Shown in pieces: positions 9,911 to 46,380 of a stretch of DNA of 64,000 nucleotides; positions within the stretch are counted from its first letter, which is position 1; the number at the start of each line of letters is the position of its first letter. The translations under genes and the position numbers were made by a program. The stretch comes from Chryseobacterium sp. 39-10 (lineage in GTDB: Bacteria > Bacteroidota > Bacteroidia > Flavobacteriales > Weeksellaceae): the NCBI GenBank assembly GCA_001898255.1, contig MKTK01000038.1, positions 313,229 to 377,228 of the forward strand, given 5' to 3'. The notes beneath the pieces are model-generated. The model had not been told where the DNA came from and made no database searches. It saw only the letters and a list, made by a program, of their open reading frames with translations.

Positions 9911-12433
9911 ATGGATCATAAATTTTCCAGCGGTTTGGATCAAGTGTTCAAACAAAGTAAAAACGAAGCAAGACGGCTGCAAAGCGAGTTTTTGAATACG
10001 GAGCATTTCCTGCTGGGTATCATTAAAACCGAAAGTTCAGCCCGCGATATTTTGCAGAATTTAGGAGCGGATTTAACGCAGATTCGCCGCAAAATAGAAA
10101 CGATGGCGGTGGCAAGTTTAAACCCTTTCAATGTGGATAGCAGTAAAATTTCATTTACTAAAATGGCTGATCAGGCAGTGAAACGTTCTGAATTGGAAAG
10201 CAGACAGTATCAAAGTGCCGAGATCAATACCGTACATTTACTGCTTGGTATTCTTTATAAGGCAGAAGACCCTACAACCAATATTTTGGGCTCCTATGAC
10301 ATTGATTACGAGAGAGTCTCTAAGGAATATCAAACCATGCTTAAAAACTCAGGGCAAAATCCCAAAATGAGTGCGTACGATGATGATGAAGAAAGAGAAG
10401 AATATGGACAAATGCGAAAACCTACCGGTAATATAGGTAGCGGAAAAAGCAAAACACCTACTCTTGATAATTTCGGCAGAGATCTTACCACACTGGCAAG
10501 AGACGGGAAACTGGATCCTGTGATCGGTCGTGAACAAGAAATTGAAAGAGTTTCACAAATTTTATCACGAAGAAAGAAAAACAACCCACTGCTGATCGGT
10601 GAACCCGGCGTTGGTAAATCTGCAATTGCCGAAGGTTTAGCGCTGCGCATTCACCAGAAAAAGGTGTCGAGAGTTCTTTTTGGCAAAAGAGTAATCACAT
10701 TGGATTTGGCCAGTCTTGTGGCCGGAACAAAATACCGTGGGCAGTTTGAAGAAAGGATGAAAGCCATCATGACGGAACTGGAAAAAAACCGCGATGTCAT
10801 TCTTTTCATTGATGAACTCCATACCATCGTGGGGGCAGGAAGCTCTACGGGAAGTTTGGACGCATCAAACATGTTTAAACCCGCACTGGCACGGGGTGAA
10901 ATACAATGCATTGGCGCTACAACACTTGACGAATATAGACAGTATATCGAAAAAGATGGCGCATTAGAACGCCGTTTCCAAAAAGTAATGGTAGAACCCA
11001 CAACCGTGGAGGAAACCATTCAGATTCTGAATCAAATAAAAGACAAGTACGAAGATCATCACAATGTAATTTATACTGATGAAGCCATTGCGGCATGCGT
11101 TAATCTTACGTCAAGGTACATTACCGATCGATTTTTGCCGGATAAGGCGATTGATGCAATGGATGAAGCCGGCTCACGTGTTTACATTAAAAACATGAAA
11201 GTGCCTACCGAAATCGTCGATCATGAGAAGAAAATTGAAGAAATTAAAGAACAAAAACAACAGGCAGTAAAAGCGCAGGATTATCTGGAAGCCCGAAAAC
11301 TGAAAGATGAAGAAGAACGCCTACAGATTGAGCTGAACTTAGCACAGGAAACGTGGGATAAAAATGTAAAAGAAAAGAAAGAAACCGTCACCGAAGAGAA
11401 TGTGGCAGAAGTGGTTTCAATGATGAGCGGAATTCCTGTAACCAAAGTGGGCAAAAATGAGTTGGATAAACTGGCTCAGATGGACACGATGCTGAATGGT
11501 AAAGTGATTGGGCAAGAAGATGCAGTGAAAAAAGTGGTAAAAGCCATCCAACGAAACCGTGCAGGATTGAAAGATCCAAACAGACCGATTGGTACCTTTA
11601 TTTTCCTGGGAACAACGGGTGTTGGTAAAACCGAGCTGGCCAAAGTAATGGCTAGAGAACTCTTCGATTCTGACGATGCTTTAATTCGTATTGATATGAG
11701 TGAATACATGGAGAAATTTGCAGTATCAAGATTGGTAGGTGCGCCTCCGGGATATGTAGGATACGAAGAAGGAGGCCAGCTGACCGAAGCCGTTCGCAGA
11801 AAACCTTATGCGGTAGTTCTTTTAGACGAAATCGAAAAAGCGCATCCTGATGTTTTCAACATTTTGCTGCAGATTTTAGATGAAGGTTTTGTGACCGACT
11901 CATTGGGCAGAAAAATCGACTTCCGAAACACGATTGTGATATTAACCTCAAATATCGGTACCCGAGATCTGAAAGATTTTGGAGACGGCGTAGGATTCGG
12001 AACCAATGCGAAGAAATCCTCTTCCGATGCCAGAGCGAGAAGCACCATCGAAAATGCTTTGAAAAAAGCTTTTGCTCCGGAGTTTCTTAACAGAATAGAC
12101 GATATTGTAATCTTTAACAGTCTGGAAAAAGAAGATATTTCTAAAATTATCGATCTTGAGCTAGGCAAACTTTACAAACGTTTAGAGAAACTCAACTATC
12201 ACGTAGAGCTTACCGATGATGCCAAAAGTTTTATCGCAGATAAAGGTTGGGATAAAGACTTTGGAGCCCGACCGCTGAAAAGAGCTATACAGAAGTACAT
12301 CGAAGATTTACTTGCCGAAATGTTGGTAAACAAACAGCTAACCGAGGGACAAACCGTGGTTCTTAAGCTGAATGATGCCAAAGATGCGTTGGAAGGTAAA
12401 GCCAGTAAAAAGAAGGAAGCGGCAAAACAATAA
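9911..12433 (+). CDS. clpC: ATP-dependent Clp protease ATP-binding subunit ClpC
   Basis: Hexameric AAA+ unfoldase that feeds damaged proteins to ClpP in the cytoplasm. The 840-residue protein has a double Clp_N repeat at about residues 17-143, the first Walker A (GEPGVGKSAIAEG) near residue 230, a short middle domain with the UVR-like stretch AQDYLEARKLKDEEERL near residue 455, a second Walker A (GTTGVGKTELAK) near residue 567, and the D2-small domain to the end. The short middle domain identifies ClpC rather than ClpB. It is monocistronic: own -7 element upstream, strong terminator at 12453-12485. No CtsR-type operator was seen, as expected outside Firmicutes. Confidence 0.95.
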   Translation: MDHKFSSGLDQVFKQSKNEARRLQSEFLNTEHFLLGIIKTESSARDILQNLGADLTQIRRKIETMAVASLNPFNVDSSKISFTKMADQAVKRSELESRQYQSAEINTVHLLLGILYKAEDPTTNILGSYDIDYERVSKEYQTMLKNSGQNPKMSAYDDDEEREEYGQMRKPTGNIGSGKSKTPTLDNFGRDLTTLARDGKLDPVIGREQEIERVSQILSRRKKNNPLLIGEPGVGKSAIAEGLALRIHQKKVSRVLFGKRVITLDLASLVAGTKYRGQFEERMKAIMTELEKNRDVILFIDELHTIVGAGSSTGSLDASNMFKPALARGEIQCIGATTLDEYRQYIEKDGALERRFQKVMVEPTTVEETIQILNQIKDKYEDHHNVIYTDEAIAACVNLTSRYITDRFLPDKAIDAMDEAGSRVYIKNMKVPTEIVDHEKKIEEIKEQKQQAVKAQDYLEARKLKDEEERLQIELNLAQETWDKNVKEKKETVTEENVAEVVSMMSGIPVTKVGKNELDKLAQMDTMLNGKVIGQEDAVKKVVKAIQRNRAGLKDPNRPIGTFIFLGTTGVGKTELAKVMARELFDSDDALIRIDMSEYMEKFAVSRLVGAPPGYVGYEEGGQLTEAVRRKPYAVVLLDEIEKAHPDVFNILLQILDEGFVTDSLGRKIDFRNTIVILTSNIGTRDLKDFGDGVGFGTNAKKSSSDARARSTIENALKKAFAPEFLNRIDDIVIFNSLEKEDISKIIDLELGKLYKRLEKLNYHVELTDDAKSFIADKGWDKDFGARPLKRAIQKYIEDLLAEMLVNKQLTEGQTVVLKLNDAKDALEGKASKKKEAAKQ

Positions 12434-35085: not shown

Positions 35086-37526
35086 ACTATACTACCCAAC
35101 AAATTGCCGAAATTACGGGCGCCGAGTTAATCGGTGAGCCAAACTTGACTGTCAGGAATATTGCCTTCGACAGCAGAACCATCTATTCTAACATCAATAC
35201 TGCGTTTGTTGCTATCAACACGTTCAAGAACTCAGGTGAAAAGTACATACAGGCGGCAGTTGAAAAAGGAATACGCATTATCATTGCAGAGCATTACCGT
35301 CCCGAAATGCCTGGTATTACTTGGATCATTGTCAAAAATTCGATCGCTTTTATTCAGAAACTTGCTCAGTATCATCTTCAGCAATATCATTTACAAACCA
35401 TTGGCATCACCGGAAGCAACGGCAAAACCATTGTAAAAGAATGGCTTTATCAAAGTCTTTTCGAAAAATTCAGTACAGTAAAAAGTCCTAAGAGTTTCAA
35501 CTCTCAAATTGGTCTGCCTATTTCCCTGCTCGGCATCAACAAGAATCATCAACTCGGTATTTTTGAAGTGGGTATCTCAAAACCAGGAGAAATGGATGTT
35601 CTGGAGAAAATATTCTCGCCACAGATCGGAGTTCTCACCTATATCGGTTCTGCTCATCTCTCCAATTTCACGAATGAAGAAGAACTGGTTAATGAAAAAA
35701 TTAAACTCTTTAAAGATTCTGAAACCATCATCTTTAATGGAGATAATGAACTGGTATTCAATAAAATTAATTCACTATATTCAAGTAAAAAATTAATTTC
35801 ATTTGGTCTTAATACGCGTAACAATGTTCGTATTAAAAATGACCATAACAACAAAAATAGTGATCTTCTTTTTAAGTATTTTGACGAGGAATTTCTCATA
35901 CCCATAAAGCAAAGAGATGAGGCCACACTCAGCAATGCTTTGTGTGTCGTAGCCGTGCTTAAGGAATTTCACTTTACCAATAGTGACATTGTTCAGAAAC
36001 TGAACCAGCTGAAAGCCGTTGAAATGCGCCTGGAAAGTGTGAACGGTTTACGAAATAATCTTATTATCAATGATTCCTTCAACCTTGATTTGGACTCGCT
36101 GAAGATTGCTTTCCAGTTCATTAAAGAATACAACAAATCAAAAAAATCACTTATCCTTACCGATTTTGCGGAAGGAAAAGATGCGGACCAACTCTATTCG
36201 GAAGTTGCTGAGCTCACCAACCAGCAAAATTTTAATAAAATCTTTCTCATAGGCGAAGAGATCACCAAAAAAGCTGATCTTTTTAGCCCTGAAACATACA
36301 CTTTTAATAACACAAAAGAACTCATTGAAAGTCACCTGCTTAATCAAATTGAAAATGAACTTATTCTCTTAAAAGGTGCCCGAAAGTTCGAGATAGAAAA
36401 AGTAAAGACAGATCTCGAGTTGCAGAAGCATGATACGGTGCTTGAGGTGAATCTGAATGCCATCCTTCACAATATCAATGTTCATAAAGCAATGCTGAAA
36501 CCGGAAACCAAAATGATGGCGATGGTGAAAGCATATTCCTATGGATTGGGAGGCTATGAAATTGCAGAGTTTTTACAGCATCATCACATTGATTATCTGG
36601 GTGTTGCTTATGCTGATGAGGGAGTAAATCTGCGTAAAGAAGGGATTACTGCTCCCATCATGGTAATGAATCCCGAGCAACACAGCTACGACATCATCAT
36701 CGATTATAACTTAGAACCAGAAATCTACAGTTTCAGGGTATTGGATTTATTTAATCAGCAATTGGTGCGAAAAGGTATTCATCAAAAATTTCCTATTCAC
36801 ATCAAATTAGAAACGGGGATGCATCGTCTTGGTTTTAAGACTGATGAATTACCTGAACTCATCGATAAGTTGAAGTCGATGAACGTTACAGTACAAAGTA
36901 TTTTCAGCCACTTATCTTCAGCGGACGATCCTTCGGAAGATGAATATACCCGCAAGCAAATCAGGATTTTTGATCAAAACTCAAGTACGCTTGTGGATGG
37001 ACTTGGTTATCGCCCAATACGTCATATCCTGAACTCGGCTGGTATCACGAGGTACACGGATTATCAGTTTGATATGGTGAGAATCGGGATTGGAATGGTG
37101 GGCATTTCTCCTGAGCCAAGCGTTCAAAAACAGCTTCGGCGCGCAGTAACGTTTAAAACCGTTATTTCCCAAATATCCGAAGTTTGCGCCGGTGATTCCA
37201 TTGGATACAACCGGAGGTACAAAACAGAGAAAGATACAAGAATTGCCACAATACCAGTTGGTTATGCTGACGGAATCCCGCGGCTCATCGGCAATAGAGT
37301 GGGAAATGTGGGGATTAATCAAAAACTTCGACCGATTGTAGGAAATATTTGCATGGACATGATGATGATTGATGTGGACAATGCCGCTGTGAATGAAGGA
37401 GATGAAGTGATTATTTTTAATGGAACTCCTTCTCTGGAGGAATTTTCATCCTATTGCCAAACCATTCCCTACGAAGTGCTGACATCAATTTCAAGACGGG
37501 TTAAACGAATTTATATCAAAGACTAG
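35082..37526 (+). CDS. Bifunctional MurF ligase / alanine racemase
   Basis: Fusion of two peptidoglycan-precursor enzymes, 814 residues. The N-terminal MurF half (1 to about 450) joins D-Ala-D-Ala to the UDP-MurNAc-tripeptide and has the P-loop [16 protein letters not shown] (about 105-120), [11 protein letters not shown] and [14 protein letters not shown]. The C-terminal PLP-dependent alanine racemase half has the lysine in [13 protein letters not shown] (about residue 482), [12 protein letters not shown], and [12 protein letters not shown]. The fusion is typical of Bacteroidota. It starts inside the tdk stop and abuts the patatin gene with no spacer, so these genes are one operon. Confidence 0.93.
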
Positions 37527-40125: not shown

Positions 40126-40141
40126 TGTTTCACGTGAAACA
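40126..40141. promoter_or_regulatory. parS: parS centromere site 1
   Basis: A perfect 16-bp palindrome TGTTTCACGTGAAACA (18 bp with the flanking A and T), identical to the widely conserved chromosomal parS consensus bound by ParB. It sits in the 61-base gap between ybeY and mnmG. The parA/parB genes are not in the window. Confidence 0.9.
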
Positions 40142-40176: not shown

Positions 40177-42039
40177 ATGATAAACGAAATATACGATGTG
40201 ATTGTAGTGGGCGCAGGGCATGCCGGATGCGAAGCAGCTGCTGCTGCTGCCAACCTGGGATCCAAAACACTGCTCATTACCATGAACATGCAAACCATAG
40301 GGCAAATGAGCTGTAATCCTGCGATGGGAGGTATTGCAAAAGGGCAAATTGTACGCGAAATAGACGCGATGGGTGGCTATTCCGGAATTGTGGCCGATCA
40401 ATCCGCCATCCAGTTCAAAATGCTTAATCTTTCCAAAGGTCCTGCAATGTGGTCTCCACGTACCCAAAATGACAGAATGTTGTTTGCCCAAGATTGGAGA
40501 TTGGCACTGGAAAACACCCCTAACCTCGATTTCTTTCAGGATATGGTGAAAAGCTTGGTTGTTGAGAATAATCAGGTTACAGGTGTTGTTACCTCCTTAG
40601 GTATTACCATAAAAGGCAAGGCAGTGGTGTTGACCAATGGCACTTTTCTTAATGGCTTAATTCATGTAGGAGATAAACAATTGGGAGGCGGCAGAATGGG
40701 CGAACCAAGAGCTTTCGGCATCACCGAGCAGCTTGTTACATTGGGTTTTGAAGCAGGACGTATGAAAACCGGCACACCGCCACGCGTTGACGGCAGATCT
40801 CTCGATTACTCAAAAATGGAAGAACAGAAAGGTGATGAAAATCCACAAAAATTTTCATACCTCGATACACCAAAACTCACCAAACAAATGAGTTGCCACA
40901 TTGTATATACCAATGAGACCGTCCATGATATCCTTCGCGAAGGATTTGACCGAAGCCCCATGTTTAATGGCACCATTCAAAGTATTGGTCCGCGCTACTG
41001 CCCGAGTATTGAGGATAAAATCAACCGTTTTGCTGAGCGAAACAGGCACCAACTCTTTGTAGAACCTGAAGGATGGAAAACTGTCGAAATGTACGTCAAT
41101 GGTTTCAGTTCATCGTTGCCTGAAGATATTCAGATTAAGGCCATGAGACACATCCCTGGTTTTGAAAACGTCAAAGTATTTCGTCCCGGTTATGCCATTG
41201 AGTATGATTACTTCCCTCCTACCCAGCTTAATCACACCTTAGAAACTAAACTGATCAATAATCTGTATTTTGCAGGGCAAATCAATGGAACAACTGGCTA
41301 TGAAGAAGCTGCAGGACAAGGGTTAATTGCGGGAATCAATGCGCATAATAAAGTTCATGACAAAGAATCATTCATTCTCAACCGTGATGAGGCATATATC
41401 GGCGTTCTCATTGATGATTTAATTACCAAAGGTACTGAAGAGCCCTACCGGATGTTTACTTCACGAGCAGAATATCGCTTGCTTTTAAGGCAGGATAATG
41501 CAGATATCCGTCTCACAGAAAAATCGTATCAACTGGGTCTTGCCAAACAGGAACGACTTAGAAAAGTTGAAGAAAAAGTAACAAAAAGCAATGAACTGGA
41601 GACAGTCTTGAGAGAAACCTCATTAAAGCCAAGCATCATCAATCCTATTTTAGAAACTATTGATTCCTCTCCTGTTGATCAAGCATACCGTGCAGCTCAG
41701 ATTCTTACAAGACCCAATATGACCTTGGAAAAATTGGAAGAGATTGATATTATTCGTGAACAGACCGCAGATTTTAATGAAGAAGTAAAAGAACAGGCCG
41801 AAATCAATATTAAATACCGTGGCTATATAGAAAAAGAAAAAGAGAACGTTGCTAAACTAAACCGACTTGAAAAAATAAGAATTCCGCAGGACTTTGATTT
41901 CTCCAAAATATCATCCCTATCCACCGAAGCCAAACAAAAAATGAATAAGGTAAAACCAAAAACCATTGCACAAGCAGGACGTATCAGTGGAGTTTCACCT
42001 GCAGATATTAATGTGCTCCTCATTTATCTCGGTAGATAA
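40177..42039 (+). CDS. mnmG: tRNA uridine-5-carboxymethylaminomethyl modification enzyme MnmG (GidA)
   Basis: FAD-dependent subunit of the MnmE-MnmG complex that modifies wobble uridine 34 of several tRNAs. The 620-residue protein starts with the dinucleotide motif VIVVGAGHAGCEAAAAAANLG and has SCNPAMGGIAKGQIVREIDAMGG, the catalytic-cysteine segment KMSCHIVYTN-like QMSCHIVYTNETVH, GPRYCPSIEDKI, and the C-terminal FTSRAEYRLLLRQDNADIRL. Length is standard. It is flanked on both sides by perfect parS sites; in many bacteria gidA lies beside oriC and the par genes. Confidence 0.96.
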   Translation: MINEIYDVIVVGAGHAGCEAAAAAANLGSKTLLITMNMQTIGQMSCNPAMGGIAKGQIVREIDAMGGYSGIVADQSAIQFKMLNLSKGPAMWSPRTQNDRMLFAQDWRLALENTPNLDFFQDMVKSLVVENNQVTGVVTSLGITIKGKAVVLTNGTFLNGLIHVGDKQLGGGRMGEPRAFGITEQLVTLGFEAGRMKTGTPPRVDGRSLDYSKMEEQKGDENPQKFSYLDTPKLTKQMSCHIVYTNETVHDILREGFDRSPMFNGTIQSIGPRYCPSIEDKINRFAERNRHQLFVEPEGWKTVEMYVNGFSSSLPEDIQIKAMRHIPGFENVKVFRPGYAIEYDYFPPTQLNHTLETKLINNLYFAGQINGTTGYEEAAGQGLIAGINAHNKVHDKESFILNRDEAYIGVLIDDLITKGTEEPYRMFTSRAEYRLLLRQDNADIRLTEKSYQLGLAKQERLRKVEEKVTKSNELETVLRETSLKPSIINPILETIDSSPVDQAYRAAQILTRPNMTLEKLEEIDIIREQTADFNEEVKEQAEINIKYRGYIEKEKENVAKLNRLEKIRIPQDFDFSKISSLSTEAKQKMNKVKPKTIAQAGRISGVSPADINVLLIYLGR

Positions 42040-42045
42040 TAATGA

Positions 42046-42061
42046 TGTTTCACGTGAAACA
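42046..42061. promoter_or_regulatory. parS: parS centromere site 2
   Basis: A second perfect TGTTTCACGTGAAACA (again 18 bp with flanking A and T), 7 bases after the mnmG stop and 1,920 bases from the first site. Two exact copies this close are not expected by chance. Confidence 0.9.
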
Positions 42062-44155: not shown

Positions 44156-45346
44156 TCAATTATTGATAGCTGCTACACCAGGAAGTTCTTTTCCTTCTAA
44201 GCTTTCCAGCATTGCTCCACCACCCGTAGAAACATAACTTACTTGATCCGCATAGCCAAACTGTTTCACAAATGCAACAGAATCACCACCGCCTACTAAT
44301 GAGAATGCACCCTGTTTTGTGGCTTCAGCAATACTATCTCCTAAAGCAATTGTTCCTGCAGCAAAATTCGGCATTTCAAAAACGCCAATTGGTCCGTTCC
44401 ATAAAATCGTTCTTGAGTTCATAATCACATCATTGAACAATACACGGGTTTTTGTACCAGCGTCCATACCCATCCAACCTTCAGGGATTTCATAAATATC
44501 AACTTCTTTTCTTTCTGCATCATTACTAAATTCATTAGCAACCACAGTATCTACAGGCAAATAAACCTTTACATTCTGCGCTTTCGCCTTTTCCAAAATC
44601 TCCAAAGCCAAAGGAAGTTTATCATCTTCCAAGAGTGAAGTTCCTATCTGGCCACCTAACGCCTTAATAAAAGTAAATGACATTCCACCTCCAATAATTA
44701 GGTTATCAATTGCCGGTAAAATATTTTCAATAATGGTAATTTTCGTCGATACTTTGGATCCTCCAAGAATGGCAGTAACTGGTTTCTCTCCGCTCTTCAA
44801 TACTTTGTCGATCGCTTCAAGTTCTTTTGCCATCAGTAAACCGAAAAACTTAGTAGAAGGAAAAAACTGTGCAATCACGGCAGTGGAAGCATGGGCTCTG
44901 TGCGCCGTTCCGAATGCATCATTTACATAAGCATCACCCAACTTTGCAAGTTTCTCTGCAAAATCTTTATCTCCTGCTTCTTCTTCGTTATAAAATCTAA
45001 GGTTTTCTAAAAGCAGAATTTCACCGGGTTTAAGTTCAGAAGCCATCTCTTCAGCTTCGGCTCCAATACAATCCGGACAAAATTTCACCTCATGACCCAG
45101 TACCTTTTCAATTTCAGGAACGATACTCTTCAAAGAAAATTCAGGATTAACTTTTCCTTTCGGCCTTCCTAAATGCGTCATCAATATCACCGAACCGCCA
45201 TCATTTAGTATCTTCTCAACAGTAGGTTTTACCGCCTGTATTCTCGTGTTATCGGTCACTTTCAAATCAGCATCTTGTGGCACATTAAAATCTACACGTA
45301 CCAGTGCTTTTTTATCTTTAAAATTGTAATCTTGGATTGTCTTCAT
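44156..45346 (-). CDS. pgk: Phosphoglycerate kinase
   Basis: Glycolytic enzyme transferring phosphate between 1,3-bisphosphoglycerate and ADP. The 396-residue protein has [71 protein letters not shown], and the C-terminal nucleotide-site [13 protein letters not shown] and [18 protein letters not shown]. Length and motifs are standard. It is a single gene reading away from the large AT-rich gap, with a TAAATTTG -7 element just upstream. Confidence 0.97.
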
Positions 45347-45367
45347 ATTGCCTTATTTTTGCTTGTA

Positions 45368-45375
45368 CAAATTTA
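45368..45375 (-). promoter_or_regulatory. Candidate -7 promoter element of pgk
   Basis: TAAATTTG on the minus strand, 21 bases upstream of the pgk ATG. It matches TAnnTTTG; the -33 is unclear. Confidence 0.5.
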
Positions 45376-45603
45376 AACTTTATAATGACGATTCCGAATT
45401 AATATTCGATTAAAAATCCACAAACTGACAAATAACATTTACTCCACAATATTTTCTTTTTATTAAAAAAAATAAATGAGTAGTGTTGTTGTATTGCACG
45501 GTTTTGTTGAAAACTTATTCTTGATTTTTGATCACATTACGTTCATGCTCAATTCATATTCAATTCACATTTCAATGTGTTGATTTTTAATTATTTTTAA
45601 CAC

Positions 45604-45612
45604 TTATCAACA
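45604..45612 (+). other. DnaA-box-like sequence (one mismatch)
   Basis: TTATCAACA differs from the DnaA box TTATCCACA at one position. It lies next to the A/T tract at 45582-45600. Confidence 0.45.
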
Positions 45613-45771
45613 ATTGTCAGTAACTGCTATGGCATGCAATTATTAAGAAACGGGTTATGGAAAACTTTGTTATTGTTTGCCAAAAATTAGAAATAAAATT
45701 TTCCTCGGCAAGTGAAGTATTTTGTTCAATATGAATTTAATTTGAATTAGAAAAGGAAATGTTTTACTCAC

Positions 45772-45780
45772 TTATCCACA
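45772..45780 (+). other. DnaA box (perfect consensus)
   Basis: TTATCCACA matches the consensus TTATNCACA exactly. It lies in the middle of the pgk-rpiB gap. Confidence 0.55.
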
Positions 45781-45919
45781 AGAATTGACTGCTGTTTTCA
45801 CAAGTTATACTAAATAGGTTTTTATATTGAAACCGAGTGTAAATAATTGATTTTAAATCATTTGATTACATTAAACAAAGTATCAAAGCTTTTAGCAGTT
45901 ATATTTAAGTGAATAACCC

Positions 45920-45927
45920 TAAATTTG
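45920..45927 (+). promoter_or_regulatory. Candidate -7 promoter element of rpiB
   Basis: TAAATTTG matches TAnnTTTG 21 bases before the rpiB ATG. The -33 is unclear. Confidence 0.5.
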
Positions 45928-45948
45928 TAAAACCTGTAATAAGACATT

Positions 45949-46380
45949 ATGAAAAAAATTGCAATTGCATGTGATCATGCGGGATTTGAGTATAAAGAGT
46001 ACCTTAAACAACAACTGAGTGATCAGTATGAACTGCAAGATTTCGGCACCTACTCTACCGCTTCGGTGGATTATCCGGATTTTGTGCATCCTGCTGCTCG
46101 TTCGGTAGAAAATGGAGAAAACGAATTGGGAATTCTGATCTGCGGCAGCGGGCAAGGTGTGCAATTAACGGCCAATAAGCACCAGAAAATAAGATGTGCA
46201 TTATGCTGGATGCCTGAAATAGCATCGCTTTCTCGCGAACATAACAATTGCAATATGGTTGCACTTCCTGCGAGGTTTATTGCTAAAGAACTTGCACTGG
46301 AAGTTGTGAAAAAATTCTTGGAGACACCTTTTGAAGGAGGAAGACATCAGAACCGAGTGGATAAAATTGGCTGTATCTAA
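45949..46380 (+). CDS. rpiB: Ribose 5-phosphate isomerase B
   Basis: Interconverts ribose 5-phosphate and ribulose 5-phosphate. The 143-residue protein begins MKKIAIACDHAGFEYKEYL, and has the phosphate/anion loop ILICGSGQGVQLTANKH and the active-site cysteine region RCALCWMPEIASLSREHNNCNM. The GSGQGVQ wording instead of GTGIG is, as I recall, usual in Bacteroidota RpiB. It diverges from pgk. The next clear gene, rnr, starts 177 bases later on the same strand. Confidence 0.93.
   Translation: MKKIAIACDHAGFEYKEYLKQQLSDQYELQDFGTYSTASVDYPDFVHPAARSVENGENELGILICGSGQGVQLTANKHQKIRCALCWMPEIASLSREHNNCNMVALPARFIAKELALEVVKKFLETPFEGGRHQNRVDKIGCI

Follow-up and report, generated by a model that had tools for sequence, protein, structure and literature searches.

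In the draft genome of Chryseobacterium sp. 39-10 (3.07 Mb, 41 contigs), we identified the AT-rich gap between the divergent genes pgk and rpiB as the very probable chromosomal replication origin. We put at roughly 0.92 the probability that this gap is the DnaA-dependent oriC of the Chryseobacterium-like Weeksellaceae chromosome. A first-pass annotation had proposed an origin here, uncoupled from dnaA, and our analysis supports that reading. The place of the element, its conservation in relatives, the change of GC skew, the cluster of parS sites, the reading directions of 16S genes in relatives and the separation from dnaA could all be read directly from sequence. Throughout, "the window" is the whole stretch of 64,000 nucleotides that was analysed (contig C38, positions 313229–377228), and unprefixed coordinates count from its first nucleotide (Table 1).

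The pgk–rpiB gap and its DnaA boxes

The gap measures 602 bp, has a GC content of 26% and is bounded by pgk on the minus strand and rpiB on the plus strand. As had been claimed, it is the longest intergenic region of the window, ahead of the four other gaps of at least 250 bp between ATG-started open reading frames (ORFs) of at least 90 amino acids. It is also the only one of these five to hold a DnaA box with at most one mismatch. The most similar RpiB among named relatives is that of Chryseobacterium koreense (87%); those of other Weeksellaceae come next. In addition to rpiB and mnmG, ybeY and rnr scored above their NCBIfam cut-offs; pgk had a single NCBIfam match, to the kinase part of the bifunctional model NF010569, under that model's cut-off. 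Both edges of the gap carry an outward-pointing TAnnTTTG, which we take to be the Bacteroidota-type −7 promoter element, and a third match lies on the plus strand at 45354.

Table 1. Features in and around the proposed origin (window coordinates)
Feature	Position	Strand	Evidence or remark
parS TGTTTCACGTGAAACA, perfect, between ybeY and mnmG	40126–40141		Whole-genome scan
mnmG (gidA)	40177–42039	+	TIGR00136, above cut-off
parS TGTTTCACGTGAAACA, perfect, directly after mnmG	42046–42061		Whole-genome scan
pgk, left edge of proposed origin	44156–45346	−	NCBIfam match to kinase part of NF010569, under cut-off
Proposed oriC, AT-rich gap between divergent pgk and rpiB	45347–45948		Length, boxes, conservation, skew minimum
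Likely pgk promoter, TAnnTTTG −7 element	45368–45375	−	Motif match; kept in relatives' alignment
Candidate unwinding element, least stable 80 bp of gap	45397–45476		Nearest-neighbour stability scan
Conserved block TGTTGTTG	45484–45491	+	Between A/T tract and first box position
Degenerate DnaA-box position TTTTCAACA, two mismatches	45505–45513	−	Positional conservation only; weak in source genome
DnaA box TTATCAACA, one mismatch	45604–45612	+	168 bp left of main box
Degenerate DnaA-box-like TTTTCCATA, two mismatches	45656–45664	−	Weak; in conserved block around TATGGAAAA
DnaA box TTATCCACA, perfect, main box	45772–45780	+	Box at same position in most aligned relatives
Likely rpiB promoter, TAnnTTTG −7 element	45920–45927	+	Motif match; kept in part of alignment
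rpiB, right edge of proposed origin	45949–46380	+	TIGR01120, above cut-off

The perfect box at 45772 and the one-mismatch box at 45604, on which the first-pass annotation had drawn, were both re-found, and its caveats that few good boxes are visible and that plus-strand genes lie to the left are correct. Two boxes with at most one mismatch are uncommon in a shuffled pgk–rpiB gap (p ∼0.018; 500 dinucleotide shuffles). A perfect box anywhere in the window is not unusual, since 44 of 100 shuffles also had one. The box evidence from the source genome alone is modest.

Alignment with relatives added detail to the box positions. Two positions, 45505 and 45656, are occupied by boxes in relatives and are degenerate in the source sequence; at 45505 the aligned relatives have TTATCCACA, TTTTCCACA or TTATCCCC. 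The box at 45604 is a member of an inverted box pair in some relatives. The candidate unwinding element, which ranks eighth among the separated 80-mers of the window by nearest-neighbour stability, has a T/A tract at its right end that is conserved in the alignment. The neighbouring block TGTTGTTG, or a close variant, was present in 50 of 53 de-duplicated gaps, compared with ∼11% in mononucleotide shuffles. A strict DnaA-trio pattern (a box, a spacer of at most 16 bp and then at least three 3′-[G/A]A[T/A]-5′ trios) occurred in 5 of the 53 gaps against a shuffled mean of 5.7, and nowhere in the window. Such arrays are not above chance and therefore do not settle the unwinding element of the gap.

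The gap and its boxes are conserved in relatives

The first-pass annotation had looked to related genomes as a check on its proposal, and both the gap and the boxes proved to be conserved. Of 80 named relatives, 76 retain the order pgk (minus strand), gap, rpiB (plus strand), and those sharing the gap include Chryseobacterium, Epilithonimonas, Soonwooa and Bergeyella zoohelcum. Another comparison of the gap in relatives took in 110 loci, of which 11 with rpiB on the minus strand were skipped and seven were without pgk. Sixty-nine of the 76 gaps measure 550–843 bp (median 646) and seven measure 2.1–2.4 kb. All 76 hold at least one box with at most one mismatch, 68 hold at least two and 54 at least three; a perfect box is present in 36.

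These numbers are far above those of shuffled sequence. We removed near-duplicates from 85 gaps of 500–900 bp, which left 53 with the window's own gap included. The 53 gaps contained 171 boxes with at most one mismatch and 38 perfect boxes, compared with 12.8 and 0.6, respectively, in dinucleotide shuffles. Box positions also recur, and in many gaps the main box is accompanied by another 168–170 bp to its left.

GC skew changes sign around the gap

On contig C38, the GC skew of 12-kb samples was negative in eight of the nine stretches to the left of the window and positive in all five to the right; the 8-kb blocks between the left end of the window and the gap were mixed. The cumulative G−C minimum over a contiguous 88 kb fell at about 45611–45630, inside the pgk–rpiB gap. 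When 1-kb blocks were reshuffled 20,000 times, the minimum came within 1 kb of the gap in 545 cases and was equally deep in 24. A divergent gene pair alone gives a local skew minimum, and the minimum at the gap is therefore support and not proof. The cumulative minimum was likewise inside the gap in 57 of the 69 named loci that reached 13 kb, but in only two of eight 12–14 kb loci from relatives.

Whole-chromosome skew was sampled in four relatives, three from the branch of the source genome and one from the other. In G104, G022 and G053 it agreed, or nearly agreed, with an origin at the gap, but the fits were weak, being equalled by 20, 35 and 33 of 400 reshuffles, respectively. For G022 the gap falls outside the best-fit interval but within the second-best, and for G053 it is 1.5 kb beyond the edge of the best-fit interval. 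For G062, of the other branch, the best fit was 0.51–0.68 Mb, with parS outside it at 0.95 Mb. The first-pass annotation had expected the whole-genome skew minimum at the gap; on contig C38 both the change of sign and the 88-kb minimum agree with this, and the skew of the sampled relatives was weak or mixed.

parS sites cluster beside the gap and dnaA lies elsewhere

A scan of the whole genome with TGTTTCACGTGAAACA found three parS sites with at most one mismatch, all less than 20 kb from the pgk–rpiB gap. The two perfect sites lie 5.2 and 3.3 kb to its left, close to the distances given earlier, and the third, with a single mismatch, is 19.9 kb to its right. One further site, with two mismatches, is on another contig. 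In genomes with ParABS, neighbouring parS sites are a mark of oriC; in the source genome parB scored above its cut-off and has a parA-like gene beside it. Across the family, parS with at most one mismatch was found in at least 106 of 118 genomes.

The sole dnaA match of the genome is on contig C6, in line with the earlier statement that dnaA is outside the window, and this contig has no parS with two or fewer mismatches. The pgk–rpiB gap is thus not a dnaA-adjacent origin of the Bacillus subtilis type. Likewise, in 31 relatives dnaA lies 0.19–0.49 of the chromosome away from the proposed origin locus.

The DnaA proteins of the 118 family genomes themselves form two groups by their match to TIGR00362. 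In the first, the match starts only at position 13–16 and scores ∼453–478 bits; in the second (g8, g14, g16, g18, g24 and g25), it runs from position 1 and scores ∼496–545 bits. From these matches, the N-terminal part of DnaA seems to differ between the two family branches.

16S genes read away from the proposed locus

As an independent test, the direction of rRNA genes was assessed in relatives, the source genome being a draft. All 118 counted 16S genes of the 31 relatives read away from the proposed locus, and only 24 of the 118 fit an origin at dnaA. The same branch contributed 20 single-contig relatives, in which 59 of 59 genes read away from rpiB and 13 of 59 away from dnaA. For 11 genomes of the other branch (1–4 contigs), the corresponding counts were 59 of 59 away from the parS locus and 11 of 59 from dnaA; these are 59 of 66 rows, with two continuation pieces and five fragments of 21–34 bits excluded. 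The terminus was assumed to lie opposite, and most chromosome lengths were rounded to 0.1 Mb. With the assumed origin slid by 0.10 of the chromosome, 50 or 54 of 59 genes fit, and 58 or 59 did so after a slide of 0.05. Since the counts fall at the larger shift but barely at the smaller, the test locates the origin to about 5% of the chromosome. In the other branch, rpiB also fits 59 of 59, though it is hundreds of kilobases from parS in G062 and G079, which again shows that the test is coarse.

With this resolution in mind, we considered an origin that lies in the parS domain but in another gap within ∼10–20 kb, with the pgk–rpiB gap acting as a DnaA regulatory or titration site. The parS pair flanks mnmG, and mnmG is the marker of the oriC calls in the accessible text of PMC11278836 and PMC12843772, which would fit such an arrangement. 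However, no other window gap of at least 250 bp could supply even a one-mismatch box, the 88-kb skew minimum falls inside the pgk–rpiB gap, and the box numbers in relatives exceed those of shuffles more than ten-fold. We therefore give this alternative only a slim chance and favour the pgk–rpiB gap itself as oriC.

The box-bearing element stays with pgk

Loci in which the neighbouring genes have changed allowed the box-bearing element to be followed. In seven loci of named relatives (L056, L061, L075, L078, L084, L086 and L087), a gene of 523–540 amino acids is inserted beside rpiB. In all seven, a box-bearing stretch of 569–700 bp remains on the pgk side, with only 1–39 bp between rpiB and the inserted gene; two of the seven have an extra box inside the insert. 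At nine loci pgk and rpiB are not neighbours, and all nine are box-free over the 700 bp upstream of rpiB. In G001, G002 and G062, the three such genomes in which the separated pgk was examined, its upstream 700 bp contained five, four and two boxes, respectively. As judged from these rearranged loci, the box-bearing element travels with pgk and not with rpiB.

In the second branch, the six loci whose genes could be listed have an AT-rich gap of 535–574 bp upstream of rpiB. Five of these gaps hold one box and the sixth holds two, and pgk lies across the gap in four (L212, L213, L215 and L219). In G062, the gap upstream of pgk is 610 bp long and has two boxes, with a different gene across. Locus L213 (G073) has another gap of 452 bp (10777–11228) with five boxes, two of them perfect, ∼8 kb from its pgk–rpiB gap, and this denser cluster makes the exact origin in the second branch less certain. 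In G012, neither pgk nor a box-bearing gap was present in the 12 kb around rpiB.

We also surveyed 30 loci, eight from the family and 22 from outside it, using an 80-amino-acid ORF rule under which a chance ORF can shorten a gap (e.g. L239). At 20 of the 22 loci from outside the family, the gap upstream of pgk is only 20–396 bp long and free of boxes. The exceptions are L241 (family f4), with a 577-bp gap shared with rpiB and one box, and L245, at a contig end with no ORF called and one box. Therefore, the promoters of pgk and rpiB do not require a long box-bearing gap. Among the matches listed for 25 genomes from outside the family, parS and pgk share a contig in 12, and in 11 of these 12 the parS block is 2–25 kb from pgk. 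G137, from another family, has an 818-bp gap of 18% GC adjoining rpiB (L276, 2772–3589) with two one-mismatch boxes, and its pgk is elsewhere. This suggests that the element may predate the Weeksellaceae.

The short gaps upstream of pgk outside the family also argue against the view that replication begins at or near dnaA and that the pgk–rpiB gap is merely a long divergent promoter region, as do the 1–39 bp that separate rpiB from the inserted gene in the seven loci above. Records of several single-contig relatives do start at dnaA, possibly just by convention. An origin at dnaA was rejected on the 16S directions (co-directional in only 24 of 118) together with the lack of parS on contig C6, and we regard it as highly improbable. 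Just as improbable is a structured RNA or small protein in place of an origin, which the 602-bp length and some conserved blocks might suggest: there was no Rfam match up to E = 1 in 45000–46300, no ORF of more than 35 amino acids wholly within the gap and no terminator-like site at it, and several of the conserved blocks are DnaA-box positions.

Other box clusters in the source genome

The pgk–rpiB gap has the box cluster expected of oriC, yet other gaps of the source genome hold as many boxes or more. Two or more boxes were present in five of 55 gaps of at least 200 bp in the stretches read, the pgk–rpiB gap included; this list leans towards clusters, since the stretches of the other four were picked from a perfect-box scan. 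On C15 (1347–1761), near the contig end, three perfect boxes lie between a Toprim/primase-like gene and a gene for a 374-amino-acid protein with no family match, which may be the replication region of a mobile element. On C35 (34389–34797), three boxes, two of them perfect, lie between an ABC-transporter-like gene and an nrdB-like gene (best NCBIfam match under cut-off), upstream of the latter. On C31, the gap that directly precedes a parA-like gene and parB (35805–36038) holds two perfect inverted boxes, which suggests control of the partition operon by DnaA. Finally, C3 has two perfect boxes in a gap between convergent genes. Judged by their setting in the source genome, all four clusters were set aside as oriC and are read as probable regulatory or plasmid-type sites.

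Discussion

With the pgk–rpiB gap as oriC, we propose that DnaA made from its distant gene would bind the spaced boxes, mainly those at 45772 and 45604, together with the less well matched conserved positions at 45656 and 45505. The A/T-rich left part of the gap (∼45397–45480) would then open for helicase loading, and replication forks would depart from the gap in both directions. Segregation of the daughter copies would fall to ParB bound at the two parS sites on either side of mnmG. DnaA binding, the exact site of unwinding and initiation itself are predicted here from sequence features.

Origins uncoupled from dnaA have already been predicted in this lineage with Ori-Finder, in agreement with the present reading, and the kind itself is not new, as the accessible text of three reports indicates. 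In Elizabethkingia meningoseptica G4076, the predicted oriC (740,720–741,368) is 649 bp long, has three boxes with at most one mismatch and lies 1.87 Mb from dnaA in a genome of 3,873,125 bp (PMC8994065). The pgk–rpiB gaps of four genomes from a single genus of the Weeksellaceae (g20) are similar (649, 649, 650 and 650 bp, with three boxes each). From this gap length and box count, the G4076 oriC is probably the pgk–rpiB locus, although the accessible text of PMC8994065 names no flanking genes. In Mariniflexile and Algorimicrobium, the Ori-Finder oriC adjoins mnmG (PMC11278836, PMC12843772), which resembles the mnmG–parS pair 3.3 kb from the gap in the window; these are other genera, and the exact gap does not appear in the accessible text of either report. 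The text available from PMC11278836 states that dnaA did not match the GC skew, and a figure legend there swaps oriC and ter relative to the text. Blattabacterium has no dnaA, and its origin was placed by skew, according to the part of PMC2768785 consulted. The pgk–rpiB gap is like the basal unwinding origin of B. subtilis, as described in the accessible portion of PMC8287927, in having DnaA boxes beside an A/T-rich tract, and unlike it in not being next to dnaA and in showing no enrichment of strict DnaA-trios.

The accessible text of PMC8994065, PMC11278836 and PMC12843772 mentions neither pgk and rpiB as flanking genes nor the conserved spacing of boxes or the consistency across the family. 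No experimental origin for this group appeared among the titles listed in our literature search (which covered few subscription journals and did not include DoriC), and the search returned no paper on oriC and rpiB in flavobacteria.

As a tentative extension, towards which we do not lean on balance, the Weeksellaceae and perhaps a sister family might share a long-lived, dnaA-free origin locus with the order parS–mnmG–parS … pgk–oriC–rpiB. The box element would have stayed fixed while neighbouring genes changed, and the initiator element might have shifted by kilobases within a domain anchored by parS.

For a large group of Weeksellaceae, the pgk–rpiB gap offers a precisely placed origin that can be tested. 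Several records of the family start at dnaA, where replication very probably does not begin. The pgk–rpiB locus should be the origin used for this group in estimates of growth rate from sequencing coverage, in studies of gene dosage and in origin-based vectors. It also allows a test of how an origin can hold its position over long periods when its initiator gene does not adjoin it.
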